Under the pieces are notes generated by a model. It was not told where the DNA came from. It did no database searches and saw only the letters and a program-made list of their open reading frames with translations. Below, piece after piece: positions 5,060 to 27,040 of a stretch of 32,421 nucleotides of DNA. The stretch is from the NCBI GenBank assembly GCA_015484905.1, contig WFUN01000109.1, positions 1-32,421 on the forward strand, given 5' to 3'. The first letter of the stretch is position 1; each line of letters opens with the position of its first letter. The translations under genes were made by a program, and so were the position numbers. This DNA comes from Hydrogenimonas sp. (lineage in GTDB: Bacteria > Campylobacterota > Campylobacteria > Campylobacterales > Hydrogenimonadaceae).

Positions 5060-6556
5060 CTATCTTCTGTATTCATTGTGATTGACCGCGACCTTGTAGG
5101 TCGGGTCATCCTCTTCATAGGTACAGTATTTTCCCGCCGCCTTCAAAAGCTTCTTGCAATCATCGCTCAAATGCCGTATGGTCAATCTCTTTCCGGCCTC
5201 TTCATATCTCCTTGTAATCTTATCGATCGCCTCGACACCGCTTGAGTCCATAACGCGCGTTCTTTTGAAATCCATTACCACCTCTTCTTGGTCACCGGCC
5301 ACATCGAACTGATCCAAAAAACCCTGAACAGAGCCAAAGAAGAGTGGACCGTCAAACTCATATATTTTTCTGCTTTTTTCCGTAAACACACGTGTATATA
5401 CTCTTGCATGCTGCCAGGCAAACACCAGAGCAGAAATGATCACGCCTAAAATTACAGCCACAGCCAGATCTGTGAAAATCGTTACAACGGTTACGGTAAT
5501 CAGGACGAAAGCATCTGATTTTGGCATACGGCGCAATCTATCTATACTTGCCCATTCGAAAGTCTCCATACTTACCATAAACATGATGCCAACCAATACG
5601 GCAACCGGAATCTCTCCGATATAATCACTAAATGCCACAACGAAAAGTATCAGAAGTATGGCTGCTGTCGCACCTGAAAGCCGACCCCTTCCACCTGAAG
5701 TATAATTTATAATACTCTGACCGATCATTGCGCACCCGGCCATTCCGCCAAAAACGCCACAGGTGGCGTTACCGATACCGAGAGCAACAGCCTCTTTATT
5801 CGCGTTCCCTTTTTCTCCGCTCATCTCATCCAGTACCGATAACGTAAGCAGAGATTCGATAAGCCCTACGACTGCCATGATGATAGCATACGGGAGTACG
5901 ATTTTGAATGTATCTAATGAAAATGGTACACCCGGCCAGTGAAAGTCGGGCATATCTCCGGCTATGGAGCCAAGATCCGCCACTCTTTTTGTATCAAGAT
6001 CGAAAAACACTGCAATCAGGCTCAACAGTACAATTGCAACGAGACCGGCCGGTACGGTTTTGGTAAATTTCGGCAAAATCAGCATCATCGCCATCGTTGA
6101 AAAGACAAGAGTATACATTATAACGCCTTCGCCTTTGAACATTGGCAACTGTGCCAATGCGATAACAATAGCCAAACCATTGACAAAACCCAAAATAGCA
6201 GGCTGCGGCACAAGGCGGATAAATTTGGCAAGCCTGAAAAGGCCGAAAACCAACTGAATGCCTCCTGCCAGAAGAGTAGCAAAAAAAAGGTATTCCACAC
6301 CATGTACCGCCACAAGTGAAACCATTACGACAGCTACGCTTCCCGTAGCTCCACTGATCATACCGGGCTTTCCTCCAAAAAGTGCCGTTATCAGGCCAAG
6401 AATGAAAGCCGTATAAAGACCTACCAGCGGCGAAATCCCTACTATCAAAGAAAAAGCGATAGCCTCTGGGACAAGTGCGACGGCTACTACCGCTCCGGAG
6501 AGAATATCGTTTTTTGTGCTATGTCCCCCATAGGCTTTTAGTAATTGCGCAAACAT
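5060..6556 (-). CDS. SulP family inorganic anion transporter with C-terminal STAS domain
   Basis: MFAQLLKAYGGHSTKNDILSGAVVAVALVPEAIAFSLIVGISPLVGLYTAFI... and C-terminal VVMDFKRTRVMDSSGVEAIDKITRRYEEAGKRLTI (STAS). Confidence 0.93.
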   Translation of the reverse strand: MFAQLLKAYGGHSTKNDILSGAVVAVALVPEAIAFSLIVGISPLVGLYTAFILGLITALFGGKPGMISGATGSVAVVMVSLVAVHGVEYLFFATLLAGGIQLVFGLFRLAKFIRLVPQPAILGFVNGLAIVIALAQLPMFKGEGVIMYTLVFSTMAMMLILPKFTKTVPAGLVAIVLLSLIAVFFDLDTKRVADLGSIAGDMPDFHWPGVPFSLDTFKIVLPYAIIMAVVGLIESLLTLSVLDEMSGEKGNANKEAVALGIGNATCGVFGGMAGCAMIGQSIINYTSGGRGRLSGATAAILLILFVVAFSDYIGEIPVAVLVGIMFMVSMETFEWASIDRLRRMPKSDAFVLITVTVVTIFTDLAVAVILGVIISALVFAWQHARVYTRVFTEKSRKIYEFDGPLFFGSVQGFLDQFDVAGDQEEVVMDFKRTRVMDSSGVEAIDKITRRYEEAGKRLTIRHLSDDCKKLLKAAGKYCTYEEDDPTYKVAVNHNEYRR

Positions 6557-21250: not shown

Positions 21251-21344
21251 AAAAAGTCCTTGTAATTGTCAGACACCCCCAGATGTCATTGCAAAATCAA
21301 CCTTCTTCGGCCGGTATGTTGTTTTGCACAAAAAATTCAAAAAG

Positions 21345-21755
21345 CTACAAACAGCCTTTAAAAAATGACTTTTTAGGTGGAGGTGGGGCCTTTAGCTCTT
21401 CGGCATGTATGGTATTGCCGTTTCGGTCGTACGATCCGATTATCGTAACTTCATTCCTGTTCAAAGCCTCATCGAATTCGCTACGCTTGATCTTGTCGAG
21501 CTTTATGTTATAAGTCATACCCTCATCGTGCACATAAAGAACCAGCTCCTCTTTTATGGGATCACCAAAATCCCACTCTTTGAAACAACCTTCAAACCCA
21601 CACACTGCACTCTCGAGACGACAATCTTTGAACAGGTCGTTCTTTACACACCATTTTGTTGTCAGAAAGCCTTTTTTCTCAATCTCTTCGGTTTGAGCAA
21701 AGAGAGAAACCGCCAAAACCGTCGCTAACGCGGCAAACACTATCTTCTTCATCAT
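21345..21755 (-). CDS. Secreted Cys-rich protein of unknown function
   Basis: Signal peptide MMKKIVFAALATVLAVSLFAQ; WCVKNDLFKDCRLESAVCGFEGCFKEWDFG...FKGCL; start overlaps the stop of the upstream cytochrome gene. Confidence 0.75.
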   Translation of the reverse strand: MMKKIVFAALATVLAVSLFAQTEEIEKKGFLTTKWCVKNDLFKDCRLESAVCGFEGCFKEWDFGDPIKEELVLYVHDEGMTYNIKLDKIKRSEFDEALNRNEVTIIGSYDRNGNTIHAEELKAPPPPKKSFFKGCL

Positions 21756-22948
21756 TTTGCCTCCGATTTGAGAGTTTTAAGATATGCCACCATATCGTCA
21801 AGACTCTTCTCGTCAAGAGGATAGGGAGGCATCGTAGATTGACGAATGCCATCTACAACATTGTACCACGGTGTATTGGGGTGGGCATTTCTGTTATATC
21901 CCGGAACAACCACCGCATTTGGATCCACTATGGACTCTCGCAAATAGGCAGCAGTCGAATATCCACCGACATTGTCAAGCCCTGGAGCGGCATAGTTTGG
22001 TCCGCTCAAACCACTTATCTGATGACACCCCGTGCAACCGTTTTGCTCTATCAGTTCTCTACCGTGTACTACATCCCCTTTCGCAGCAGCGGTCAATACG
22101 GTAACAAGCTCATCTTTGCCTTTATAATCAGAAAACTTCACAGCTATCCACCCTGAAAGCAGCTTCTGCCCGTCACGATTAAGCTTCTCTCCATCCCATA
22201 TGGCAAATGCTACCGGAAACACCCCTTTTAGGCTTAGATATTCATCCTTTATAGGTCGTATAAGAGTTCCTCTCCATCCATTTGCATCATACTCCATATC
22301 AGCATAAAATTTTTCACTTCCATCTTTGATCTCAGTCATCGAGCGAAAACCCTCTGAAACAAAGGAGCGCTGATAATCTCTTACAGCCAACGCTCCTACT
22401 CTTCTGGCATACTCCGCAGCCTCTTTCCCGAAAACATTTTTGCTGAGTACATTCTGCTGCATGGAGACGTCGCCGTTTCCATTTGGTTCATACACCTCCT
22501 CGATAGCTTTTTGCAAATGGATTATAACCGGTCTGTCATCACTCCCCATCCCTATATAGGGCAACTTTTCAGGATTTTTGTACTCTACTGGAAACTGTAC
22601 GGCAAATCCATCAGCATACTCGTCCGATTTGTATCCGCGCTGCACACTTCTTGTTCCGTCGGACCACTCTATCAAAAAAGCGATATTTTTATCGTCGTGT
22701 ATCGCTTTGACTTTAGCCTCTTTGGCCTTTGCCCCTCTGTTTATCGCGTTGGCCCTCTTATCATTCAAAGTAATAGCACTCTGTGGATAGAGGTGAACTG
22801 TTGTAGCCTTTACGTGCTCCCAGGCTTTAGATTCGGGCGTCAGTTTAGTGACGTCTCTGTCGGTTTTTTTAACCAAAACAATACTATCGGCCATCAATAT
22901 AGATGTAGCCAGCGTGGTCGCAAGCAGCGCAGTAGCAATCTTAATCAT
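21752..22948 (-). CDS. Gamma-type subunit: EB_dh-like heme-b domain fused to a C-terminal mono-heme cytochrome c domain
   Basis: Signal peptide MIKIATALLATTLATSILMADS; DKNIAFLIEWSDGTRS...DGFAVQFPVEY and LSGWIAVKFSDY; one CTGCH motif (22022-22036) with later TMPPYPLDEKSLDDMVAYLKTL. Confidence 0.82.
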   Translation of the reverse strand: MIKIATALLATTLATSILMADSIVLVKKTDRDVTKLTPESKAWEHVKATTVHLYPQSAITLNDKRANAINRGAKAKEAKVKAIHDDKNIAFLIEWSDGTRSVQRGYKSDEYADGFAVQFPVEYKNPEKLPYIGMGSDDRPVIIHLQKAIEEVYEPNGNGDVSMQQNVLSKNVFGKEAAEYARRVGALAVRDYQRSFVSEGFRSMTEIKDGSEKFYADMEYDANGWRGTLIRPIKDEYLSLKGVFPVAFAIWDGEKLNRDGQKLLSGWIAVKFSDYKGKDELVTVLTAAAKGDVVHGRELIEQNGCTGCHQISGLSGPNYAAPGLDNVGGYSTAAYLRESIVDPNAVVVPGYNRNAHPNTPWYNVVDGIRQSTMPPYPLDEKSLDDMVAYLKTLKSEAK

Positions 22949-24041
22949 ATTCCACCACCTTGAACTTGAATTTGTTTACACTGTTTTTGCCCTGAATATA
23001 CCTGTTATCGACCGGTGCGAGCGAAATACCCTGTTTTTTCGCGATATCTTTATAATACTCGCCATCCAACCTGAACATATCCGAATGCCTGTATGCGATA
23101 AGTATGTCCATCAGCTCACTCTCGCCGGTATCTTTACGCTTTTTCATCTCTTTACGCAGCGTTTTCATCGCTCTATGTACTTCTTTGCCAAAAAGTTTTT
23201 CCAACTCTTCCATAGGCACACGACTGCTGCCCTCTATAACTCTTCCTTCAGCATCAAATTTTGGCGGCGCTTCTGTCGGTGGAACATAATAGACATTTGG
23301 TTGCGTTCCGTAATCGCTTCTGAGCGGAAGCGCAACTTTGTATTTATGAACCAGTTTATAGACCTGACCCTCTTCGTCATCCAGAAAACCGACAAATCTG
23401 ATACGTCCAACACACTGCTGGGCGCATGCAGGAGGAAGCCCTTTTTCAACTCTGGGAAAACAGAGTATGCACTTTTCGCTTTTACTGATTTTGGGATTGA
23501 AATATATCTTTTTATAAGGGCAGCCGGCGATACAATAGCGATACCCCTGGCATCGGTCCAAATCTACAAGAACAACACCATCCTGATCCCGTTTGAAAAT
23601 CGCATCACGGGGACATGCGCTCAGGCAACCCGGATTGGAGCAGTGATTGCATATACGGGGAATGTAAAAGAAATAGTTGTCGTTCGGAAACTCTCCTGCA
23701 CCTTCGTCCTCATCCCAGTTGGGCCCCCATGTAGGTTCTATATTCGGTCTAAACTGCGCCCCAAACTGTAGTTCGTCATGGTTGTAGTCCCATGGCACCC
23801 CATAATCTGCTTCGATATTCGGAACCACTCCCGCCTGAAGGTCACCTGCAGCATCGAAGCCGCCACCAAGCTCCATCCAGTTTTTGGGATAACCTGTTCC
23901 AGGATATGTCTCGACATTGTTCCAGTACATGTACTCACGCCCGTTTCTATTGGTCCATTGGGTTTTACATGCAACAGTACAGGTCTGACATCCGATACAT
24001 TTGTTCAAATCCATTACCATTGCCAATTGTCGTTTAGACAT
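22941..24041 (-). CDS. Type II DMSO-reductase-family iron-sulfur beta subunit (NarH/SerB/EbdB-like)
   Basis: QLAMVMDLNKCIGCQTCTVACKTQWTNRNGREYMYWNNVETYPGTGYPKNW; CNHCSNPGCLSACPRDAIFKRDQDGVVLVDLDRCQGYRYCIAGCPYKKIYFNPKISKSEKCILCFPRVEKGLPPACAQQCVGRIRFVG. Confidence 0.95.
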   Translation of the reverse strand: MSKRQLAMVMDLNKCIGCQTCTVACKTQWTNRNGREYMYWNNVETYPGTGYPKNWMELGGGFDAAGDLQAGVVPNIEADYGVPWDYNHDELQFGAQFRPNIEPTWGPNWDEDEGAGEFPNDNYFFYIPRICNHCSNPGCLSACPRDAIFKRDQDGVVLVDLDRCQGYRYCIAGCPYKKIYFNPKISKSEKCILCFPRVEKGLPPACAQQCVGRIRFVGFLDDEEGQVYKLVHKYKVALPLRSDYGTQPNVYYVPPTEAPPKFDAEGRVIEGSSRVPMEELEKLFGKEVHRAMKTLRKEMKKRKDTGESELMDILIAYRHSDMFRLDGEYYKDIAKKQGISLAPVDNRYIQGKNSVNKFKFKVVEYD

Positions 24042-24044
24042 CTG

Positions 24045-24176
24045 TTATTCTCCTTCCATGCACATCAGATCGCCGGTAGCGAAAAATTGCGCGCTGTCAG
24101 CGCAAATACTCTCTATTATCGAGAGCTCAGCATCTATATTGAAGTTGTTTGTTCTACAATATTCTTCACAACTCAT
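24045..24176 (-). CDS. Candidate 43-aa acidic, four-Cys small protein between alpha and beta subunit genes
   Basis: ATG overlaps the alpha stop (ATGA). Codon-by-codon translation: MSCEEYCRTNNFNIDAELSIIESICADSAQFFATGDLMCMEGE*, ending 3 nt before the beta start. Below the 60-aa cutoff of the ORF track. Confidence 0.55.
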   Translation of the reverse strand: MSCEEYCRTNNFNIDAELSIIESICADSAQFFATGDLMCMEGE

Positions 24177-27040
24177 ATACTGGCCTTTTCAAAATCAATG
24201 GCACTGTCATATGCATATTGATTGCCATCCCAAAGACCGCCAAACTTCAAATGCCCCCAACCGTCCGCCATTTCAAGCAGATTTAAAGACATAGGCACTA
24301 CCTCATTGTGCCCTTTCTTAAACTTATACATATATGGATCCCAACCATGCTCCATTACAAGACTGTCTGGCGGGCATGAGCTCGAAACTTTGGCCATTGC
24401 ATAAAACTCGCCAAGACTGTTAAATATCCTTATGGTTTCGCCATCTTTGATACCTTTTTTCTCAGCAACTTTGCGGTTGACCTGAACATAAGGAACACCC
24501 CGCTGCAGACGCTGCAAAATACGGCTCTGTTTCCAGTTGCTATGGATCGACCAGCGGGCGTGCGGAGTCATGAGTGTAAACGGATATTTCGCCGTCTTTG
24601 GCCTGATTCCTTCCAGCGCACTGTTTGTCTCCGCACCCAGCTGTATATACCATTCATGATCCACATAAAAAGTCTGTCTTCCGCTGAGCGTTTCGAGTCG
24701 TTCGAATTTATAGAGTGTGTTTTCAAATGTAAAGTAAGGTCGGTCGCTGTATAGTGGCGAGAGTTTGCCGGCTTTCTCGTTCAGTTGCAAAAAGCCTCCC
24801 GCTTTGTACATCTTTTCCATAGTCCACGGCTGATATTGATCGCACTTTTCAAGTGCCGCTTCTACAGCCATTTTATCATCACCGAGATAAGGTTCAGCTG
24901 CCGCTTCAGACTCTTCGTCAGTATTGGTAAACTCTTTATACGCTATGGAAAGATCGTGGTATCCTTCGCGCGCATATTTCTTGTCGTCAGGCACTTTCGC
25001 TTTATCTCTGTTCTCCGGTCTATTCGCAATCTCTTCAAGCTTTTTCGCTATCAGCGCAAAAATGCTCCACTCATCTTTGGCCTCACCGATCGGCTTCATA
25101 TCCGCAACAGGTTTGGCAAGATTTGTAAAGCGATGGTATCCTGGACTTGTACGGATATCGTAAACTTCGTAATGTGATTTTGCCGGCAGTAGAATATCGG
25201 CCCAGACCGCCGCATTGCTCATGCGATAATCCACATATGCCCAAAATTTCATTTTATTTAAAAATGCCTCTCTATATTCGCTGCCCTTGTTGCGCCTGAA
25301 TTTGGAATCGGCTACAATAATGGCTACTTCAGGTGTCCACCACGGTTTTACAGCGGATTTTTTACCATTTTCACCCTCTTTCAGCACCTGCTCGATCAGT
25401 TCCATATAATCTTTTTTGCTCATCTTCTGTGACCGCTGGACATCTTCATCGCTGAAATAGTGATCGAAAGTCTCCAGCCCGTCTCCATATACGAACTCAC
25501 CGACAAACCCGGATCCGAACCGAGGTTTGTATTTGCTGCCAAAACCACTGAGTACGCCCAAACCGCTCAGGTTGAATTCATTTTCAGTGTTTAACCCTCC
25601 GTAAGGCCCCATGCGTCCCGTCAAGCCACAGATTGAAGCTATATTCCATACCGATTGCAGACCATTGAAATATTTGTTTAAAGAGAAGCCTGTTGTTATG
25701 GTGACGACTTTCGGTTTGGCTATATCGTGTGCGAGTTCACGCACTACATCAGGATGAACACCTGTAATATTCTGTGTCTTTTCCGGAGCATACCGTTTCG
25801 CAGATTTTTTCAGAATTTCGAAAACAGTAGTTACCTTGACTCTGCCATCAAGAGTTTCGACAATCCATTCACCTTCAAGTTCCGGGTCGATCCCAAACTC
25901 TTCCAGCCGAAGTGTTTTGTGTTCGCTCCCTTCAGTACCGGGCATAAGAACCGGCTCGCCCGTCCTTGCATTTATCGCATAAAACTCCTCTTCGAATCTT
26001 TCATGCTCCTCTTCGTTCTTCGCATGCTCCATATCGCTTCTTCGCAAAAGCTTTTTGTTGTCCAAGCGCACAAGAAAAGGAAGGTCTGTAAATATCTTCA
26101 TAAACCCGGGCTTGTAAAGTCTTTCGTTTAAAATTACATTGATTACACTCATTGCCAGAAAGCTGTCCGCGCCGGGCCTGATAGGAATCCAAAGATCCGC
26201 CGATTTTGCCGAACCATTGAACTCGGGAGTAATCACAACAACTTTTCCGCCATTATATTTGCCTTCCCAGACAAAGTGGGCATCGGGAATACGTGAAACC
26301 GAGGGATTTCCTCCCCAAAAAATAGAAACGTCGGTCGTGTACATAAAATCATATGTTCCACCTACGTTTCCTTCACCATAAGCGACCGCTGCTCCGGTAA
26401 ACATGTCACCCAAATATGAAGCCGGGTATATTCGGTAGGCACCCAATTGAGTGGAAAAGCGAAGCGGACCGCCCCGTCTTCCTTCTGTAAGAAGCCCTGT
26501 ACCGGCATGCACCATAAGTTTTCCAGGCCCTTTATCCGGATCGGTCATCACATCCCATACTTTTTGTGCCACTTCCATAGCAGCTTCATCCCAACTGATA
26601 CGTTTCCATTTTCCTTCACCCCGCTCACCTATACGCTTCATAGGATAAAGTATTCGGTCTTTTTCATACATTACTTGTGAATGTTGAACACCTTTATTGC
26701 ACCCTCTTGGATTGAAATCGGGAATTTTCGCGTTAATGGAAGGATATCTGGCAGACTGGTTTTCTCTTGTAACTACACCATTGTGCGACCATACCTCCCA
26801 TGAGCAGTTACCTTGGCAGTTGACGCAGTGATATGCAAATCCATGCTCATCCTTTTTTCCATAAGTGAAACTGAACTCGTTTCTATACATCTCTTCGGTA
26901 TAGGTTGTATTTGGGTAGCCGAACTTTCCATTTTCAACTTTTATGGCGCCTGTTTTGGCGAACAATCCACCCTGTGACGCCACAAGCGCAGCGGTAATTC
27001 CTGAAAATTTAAGAAAATCTCGTCTTTTATTGTTAACCAT
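24173..27040 (-). CDS. Type II DMSO-reductase-family molybdopterin oxidoreductase, catalytic alpha subunit, Tat-exported
   Basis: Tat leader NNKRRDFLKFSGITAALVA; HxxxCxxxC FS0 motif HCVNCQGNCSW followed by RGCNKGVQHSQ; TYDFMYTTDVSIFWGGNPSVSRIPDAHFVWEGKYNGGKVVVITPEFNGSAKSADLWIPIRPGADSFLAM. Confidence 0.94.
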   Translation of the reverse strand: MVNNKRRDFLKFSGITAALVASQGGLFAKTGAIKVENGKFGYPNTTYTEEMYRNEFSFTYGKKDEHGFAYHCVNCQGNCSWEVWSHNGVVTRENQSARYPSINAKIPDFNPRGCNKGVQHSQVMYEKDRILYPMKRIGERGEGKWKRISWDEAAMEVAQKVWDVMTDPDKGPGKLMVHAGTGLLTEGRRGGPLRFSTQLGAYRIYPASYLGDMFTGAAVAYGEGNVGGTYDFMYTTDVSIFWGGNPSVSRIPDAHFVWEGKYNGGKVVVITPEFNGSAKSADLWIPIRPGADSFLAMSVINVILNERLYKPGFMKIFTDLPFLVRLDNKKLLRRSDMEHAKNEEEHERFEEEFYAINARTGEPVLMPGTEGSEHKTLRLEEFGIDPELEGEWIVETLDGRVKVTTVFEILKKSAKRYAPEKTQNITGVHPDVVRELAHDIAKPKVVTITTGFSLNKYFNGLQSVWNIASICGLTGRMGPYGGLNTENEFNLSGLGVLSGFGSKYKPRFGSGFVGEFVYGDGLETFDHYFSDEDVQRSQKMSKKDYMELIEQVLKEGENGKKSAVKPWWTPEVAIIVADSKFRRNKGSEYREAFLNKMKFWAYVDYRMSNAAVWADILLPAKSHYEVYDIRTSPGYHRFTNLAKPVADMKPIGEAKDEWSIFALIAKKLEEIANRPENRDKAKVPDDKKYAREGYHDLSIAYKEFTNTDEESEAAAEPYLGDDKMAVEAALEKCDQYQPWTMEKMYKAGGFLQLNEKAGKLSPLYSDRPYFTFENTLYKFERLETLSGRQTFYVDHEWYIQLGAETNSALEGIRPKTAKYPFTLMTPHARWSIHSNWKQSRILQRLQRGVPYVQVNRKVAEKKGIKDGETIRIFNSLGEFYAMAKVSSSCPPDSLVMEHGWDPYMYKFKKGHNEVVPMSLNLLEMADGWGHLKFGGLWDGNQYAYDSAIDFEKASI

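Follow-up and report, generated by a model that had tools for sequence, protein, structure and literature searches.

A 43-codon open reading frame between the alpha and beta genes of a Hydrogenimonas molybdoenzyme operon is probably a peptide-independent bridge for translational coupling

Introduction

In an operon of Hydrogenimonas sp. that encodes a type II DMSO-reductase family molybdoenzyme, a small open reading frame (smORF) of 43 codons occupies the space between the genes for the alpha and beta subunits. Does this smORF encode a functional small protein, or does it serve the translation of its neighbors? A sequence-only reading of the window (the whole 32,421-nucleotide stretch of DNA analyzed here) had offered three answers: an assembly factor, a metal- or cofactor-binding helper, and a translational coupling device. 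Comparison with related genomes told against the first two and gave support to the third. Judged by the signatures of frame, start, stop, and Shine-Dalgarno sequence that recur across the genus, the smORF is probably a bridge for translational coupling that works whatever its peptide, and not a gene for a functional protein.

Results

Anatomy of the smORF and its operon

The operon runs in the order rhodanese-like protein, alpha, smORF, beta, gamma, a 136-aa protein, a TorD-like chaperone, and a 4Fe-4S protein. Alpha carries the Pfam domains Molybdopterin and Molydop_binding and has 5e7o/4ydd as its top PDB match; its score against TIGR03479 (777 bits) lies under the family cutoff of 985 bits. 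The beta score against its family profile, 522 bits, lies over the cutoff of 481 bits, and Pfam and NCBIfam profiles identified an ethylbenzene-dehydrogenase-type heme domain and a cytochrome c domain in gamma. The 136-aa protein (positions 21345 to 21755, between gamma and TorD) was without a Pfam or NCBIfam match. It has a signal-peptide-like start, and its C terminus, KKSFFKGCL, is kept in sister species.

The smORF reads ATG...TAA on the minus strand from 24176 to 24045, and its 43 codons specify the peptide MSCEEYCRTNNFNIDAELSIIESICADSAQFFATGDLMCMEGE. Its start overlaps the alpha stop at ATATGA (24171 to 24176), an overlapping or adjacent start being the arrangement taken here as a mark of coupling. 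Its TAA ends 3 nt upstream of the beta ATG at 24041, and the beta Shine-Dalgarno sequence (GGAAGGAGAA) sits within its last codons (Table 1). This anatomy is a direct observation. It agrees with the sequence-only reading in start and stop and in the placement of the beta ribosome binding site, and the composition given there for the peptide (Cys at residues 3, 7, 25, and 39, nine Asp or Glu residues, and one Arg) was correct on re-reading.

Table 1. Positions of the features at the alpha-beta junction of the window
Feature	Position	Strand	Description
Alpha subunit	24173..27040	(-)	955 aa; type II DMSO-reductase family molybdoenzyme; TGA overlaps smORF ATG
Alpha codons GAA AAG GCC	24180..24190	(-)	Shine-Dalgarno-like AAAAGG about 7 nt before smORF ATG
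Candidate bridge smORF	24045..24176	(-)	43 aa; ATGA overlap with alpha; TAA one codon before beta ATG, in frame with beta; peptide unconserved
Alpha-beta spacer	24042..24172	(-)	131 nt; position-homologous to spacers of 56 to 139 nt in 8 sister species; likely a degenerated three-hairpin repeat
Stretch aligning to whole repeat model	24087..24168	(-)	4.3 bits, not significant alone
Beta Shine-Dalgarno sequence AAGGAG	24047..24055	(-)	Inside last smORF codons; read directly from sequence
Beta subunit	22941..24041	(-)	366 aa; type II DMSO-reductase family iron-sulfur subunit; TIGR03478

An open frame with a characteristic start and stop recurs in long spacers of the genus

The operon was compared in 16 same-genus genomes, the window included. 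The alpha-beta junction measures 12 to 14 nt in seven of these and 56 to 139 nt in nine, among them the window. The frame set by the ATGA position was open in all nine long spacers; of the 18 alternatives offered by the two remaining forward frames, 4 were open (Fisher, P = 1.5e-4). A start that overlaps the alpha stop was found in eight of the nine: seven, namely the window and six sisters, have ATGA, with the start at -4 relative to alpha, and one has TGATG. The remaining genome, G003, is without an ATG that overlaps the alpha stop. In six long-spacer genomes, again including the window, the ORF stop shares the frame of the beta ATG and precedes it by exactly one codon, and the beta Shine-Dalgarno sequence lies inside the ORF; in G008 the stop falls 17 nt before beta.

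The end of alpha follows the length of the junction. Among the last alpha codons, GAA AAG GCC is present in 9/9 long-spacer genomes, so that an AAGG stands some 7 nt ahead of the ATGA. AAG GCC occurs in none of the seven short-spacer genomes, where GAA AAA GCA is found instead, though nearby third positions vary freely. Throughout those seven genomes the nucleotide sequence of the alpha end and the spacer, GAA AAA GCA AAT GTG TAA GGTAGGAGAG, does not change from species to species; this alpha end, the equivalent of window positions 24173 to 24190, is frozen while neighboring synonymous sites are free.

The junction between the 136-aa protein and TorD, with a gap of 63 to 176 nt, served as a control from the same operon and genomes (n = 13). 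Its -4 frame was open in 3 of 13 cases and an overlapping ATG was present in 0 of 13 (P = 4e-4 and P = 3e-5, respectively, versus the alpha-beta junction); like the Fisher value above, these P values overstate the evidence because the nine long-spacer genomes are not independent lineages. The tree mixes long and short junctions, which points to repeated switches between the two states; a parsimony reading of it by hand gives about five. At the control junction itself (window positions 21251 to 21344; the gap varies over its full range across the genus), most sister species have a hairpin directly after the stop of the 136-aa protein, possibly a processing or attenuation site.

A dispersed three-hairpin repeat lies in several junctions

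Scattered matches to the G008 spacer turned up in 14 other same-genus genomes. Together they outline a three-hairpin element of about 82 nt. Compensatory changes are seen in 11 of its 23 pairs, and the element often stands in head-to-tail clusters with a period of about 97 to 113 nt. Clusters were seen in G008, G003, G016, G014, and G001 and in other same-genus genomes (L150-L186, L209-L227), often at contig ends. Rfam returned no match for the spacers or the repeat. A covariance model of the repeat that was built without the junction copies matched the alpha-beta junctions of G008 (80.8 bits), G003 (41.0 bits), and G005 (32.0 bits). The model did not match the spacers of G006, G001, G017, G014, and G009, and those of G006 and G001 were ruled out as dispersed repeats. 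The ORF lies, then, in a spacer of variable length that repeats have entered in sister species.

The window spacer scored 4.3 bits against the whole repeat model on the right strand, which is at noise level (E = 8.4 in 32 kb), and its likeness to the repeat consensus had a P value of 0.15. A DNA search with this spacer as the query returned itself and noise only. Two diverged copies of the repeat (27 and 24 bits) are present elsewhere in the window's own genome. The window spacer is closer in sequence to the three junctions that carry the repeat than are 99.87% of shuffles (P = 0.0013), none of 1064 other stretches of the window comes as close, and the tree groups the window with G008, G005, and G012. 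Because of this resemblance and this grouping, the window spacer probably descends from the dispersed repeat by decay, on evidence that is suggestive and short of proof.

Junctions in other lineages

A Pseudomonadota metagenome-assembled genome (L057) has a 97-nt alpha-beta spacer that holds a long palindrome belonging to a repeat that occurs at about 40 other places in the same genome. An ORF of 34 aa overlaps both the alpha stop and the beta start there, with ATGA (-4) on both sides, and in two related operons (L052 and L054) alpha and beta overlap directly at -4. L057 shows the same design independently. In Sulfurospirillum sp. SCADC (L017), an 89-nt alpha-beta spacer (5911 to 6000) has its frame closed and the alpha end is altered; the operon is retained. 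In another metagenome-assembled genome (L013, 5863 to 6000), an apparent frameshift near the alpha C terminus would truncate alpha if real; an assembly error is more likely.

A chance opening in inert repeat debris as an unlikely alternative

Could the spacer be inert repeat debris, with the ORF a chance opening and beta initiating on its own Shine-Dalgarno sequence? For the window alone the question is a fair one, since about 5% of dinucleotide shuffles of its spacer keep the ATGA frame open as far, over 43 codons, which makes the opening mildly unusual in a single genome; only with all nine long-spacer junctions of the genus pooled does the opening go beyond chance. GC-rich repeats also have few stops (the spacers of G008, G005, and G009 are open by chance in 38 to 84% of shuffles), the beta Shine-Dalgarno sequence is strong, and the closed frame of the Sulfurospirillum spacer is what inert debris allows. 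However, openness of one and the same frame in 9/9 spacers, an overlapping ATG, a set stop position, and a synonymous switch to AAG GCC are unexpected of debris. The control junction is without such a pattern, and the distant lineage L057 repeats the design. We consider this explanation unlikely, though it keeps a real share of probability.

The peptide is not conserved

In type II DMSO-reductase loci of other genera with an upstream alpha gene, the distance from alpha stop to beta start is 38 nt or less in 59/69. The 43-aa peptide had no homologue among 60 related genomes and no match in NCBIfam, Pfam, or PHROGs. The ORF peptides of the nine long-spacer species vary in length (18 to 43 aa) and in sequence, sister species having unrelated peptides, and the Cys pattern of the window peptide is not retained in the ORFs of sister species. 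G006 and G001 allow a comparison by codon position: they differ very little in their alpha and beta proteins (dN 0.007, dS 0.6), their spacers are 80% identical, and the substitutions fall 8, 8, and 6 times on codon positions 1, 2, and 3, so that nothing in this pair points to peptide-level selection. As a candidate small protein conserved across type II DMSO-reductase operons the smORF was rejected, neither conserved sequence nor amino-acid constraint having been found among relatives.

The assembly-factor proposal fails because the peptide is unconserved, changes are spread equally over codon positions, and alpha and beta are nearly adjacent elsewhere, and the proposed metal- or cofactor-binding helper finds no support on the same evidence, the loss of the Cys residues in sister species included. 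The sequence-only reading had itself named a spacer not conserved as an ORF, or alpha and beta genes directly adjacent in relatives, along with no coding signal, as grounds for abandoning its proposal; the spacer peptide proved unconserved, substitutions were spread equally over codon positions, and the two genes are nearly adjacent in most related loci outside the genus. A narrower version, in which the smORF encodes a genus-specific and fast-evolving assembly factor or metal-binding helper, can point to a complete gene anatomy, to the four Cys of the window peptide, and to the best or joint-best codon score of the ATGA frame in eight of the nine spacers. It is nevertheless highly improbable: residues, length, and Cys pattern vary among species whose alpha and beta proteins are 87 to 93% identical, the three codon positions are substituted equally, and the ORF is absent altogether from seven sister species. 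As far as sequence comparison can tell, these nine natural variants of one operon show selection on the open frame, the start, and the stop without selection on the peptide.

RNA structure around the beta start

The RNA of the window spacer is not unusually stable (z = -0.7); the spacer RNAs of G008 and G003 are stable (z = -2.7 and -2.1). The predicted fold of positions 24176 to 24030 places the beta AUG in a stem. According to the predicted folds, the spacer hides the beta start no more strongly than shuffled spacers do, nor clearly more than in short-gap genomes, and a version of coupling that works by RNA unfolding is disfavored because no excess sequestration was found. A regulatory ORF of the mgtQ type, in which early acidic codons (E4 and E5) destabilize the ribosome and release a stem-loop hiding the beta start, has a known precedent in the mgtC-mgtB gap (PMC8092293) and would suit both the MSCEEYC start of the window peptide and that predicted stem, but we give it very little credence because sister species do not retain the acidic codons, and the cost of opening the beta start exceeds neither that of shuffled spacers nor, clearly, that of short-gap genomes.

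Discussion

A model for the bridge

We propose that the ancestral alpha and beta genes lay a few nucleotides apart and were presumably translated in succession, and that the junction then widened to its present lengths in part of the genus, in at least three lineages by way of the dispersed palindromic repeat. Coupling drops fast with distance, and untranslated RNA invites Rho (review PMC12548453). Across the widened junction, a ribosome finishing alpha would restart at the ATGA, downstream of the Shine-Dalgarno-like AAGG, and would read the spacer as a meaningless peptide. It would then terminate beside the beta start and reinitiate on beta. In this simplest account termination-reinitiation would happen twice, from alpha to the bridge and from the bridge to beta. 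The bridge would keep the output of alpha and beta matched, and the spacer RNA would stay covered by ribosomes and would therefore be protected from Rho. From the comparative pattern we infer that the ORF is translated and that beta depends on it.

Comparison with known systems

A close parallel to the proposed bridge is found in the mycobacterial interspersed repetitive units (MIRUs), which the account in the same review describes as small dispersed repeats at gene starts with an internal ORF coupled at -4 nt (PMC12548453, citing Supply et al. 1997); their coupling is explained there as insertion with minimal effect on expression. Like them, the window and six sisters have an internal ORF at -4 on the alpha side, and the ORF of L057 is coupled at -4 on both sides. 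The spacer is a dispersed repeat copy in G008, G003, G005, and L057; that of the window reaches 4.3 bits only. In the genus studied here, unlike in MIRUs, the upstream coupling is ATGA and the downstream stop usually lies 3 nt before beta and does not overlap it. The hosts are Campylobacterota and Pseudomonadota, and the bridge would be MIRU-like in its working, with no claim of descent from MIRUs.

Three other systems share parts of the design. mgtQ, an 8-aa ORF between mgtC and mgtB of Salmonella, promotes downstream translation (PMC8092293). It too is an intergenic ORF within an operon, and promotion of the downstream gene is what is proposed for the smORF; however, mgtQ frees a sequestered Shine-Dalgarno sequence by way of ribosome-destabilizing codons, and neither sign was found here. 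In synthetic nfORF boosters, an ORF that encodes a nonsense peptide and carries an internal ribosome binding site raises translation in E. coli (PMC13255528). They resemble the smORF in the nonsense peptide and in the strong internal ribosome binding site by the stop, directly upstream of the target gene, but they are engineered in E. coli, whereas the smORF is natural and appears to be coupled to the upstream gene as well. REPs, or GTAG-tagged palindromic repeats, are dispersed palindromes of 20 to 40 bp, and Sulfurovum sp. NBC37-1 has been reported to carry them (PMC3733652). The three-hairpin repeat is likewise dispersed near genes, and many of its copies, when read on the reverse strand, show GTAG beside hairpin 1; at about 82 nt with three hairpins, it differs from REPs in size and build.

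Implications

It is possible, and we offer the idea only tentatively, that small palindromic repeats in several phyla persist in coupled operons by keeping or creating a coupled frame, and that bridge ORFs form a general class of translated smORFs indifferent to their peptides, repeated in this genus and arisen independently in Pseudomonadota. If so, bridges would explain a share of the unconserved intergenic smORFs seen in ribosome profiling. The case also carries a warning that unconserved intergenic smORFs should not be read as functional. The nine variants of one operon offer a clean test bed for translational coupling. They suggest how repeats may enter coupled operons without breaking subunit stoichiometry, which has so far been described mainly for mycobacterial MIRUs.
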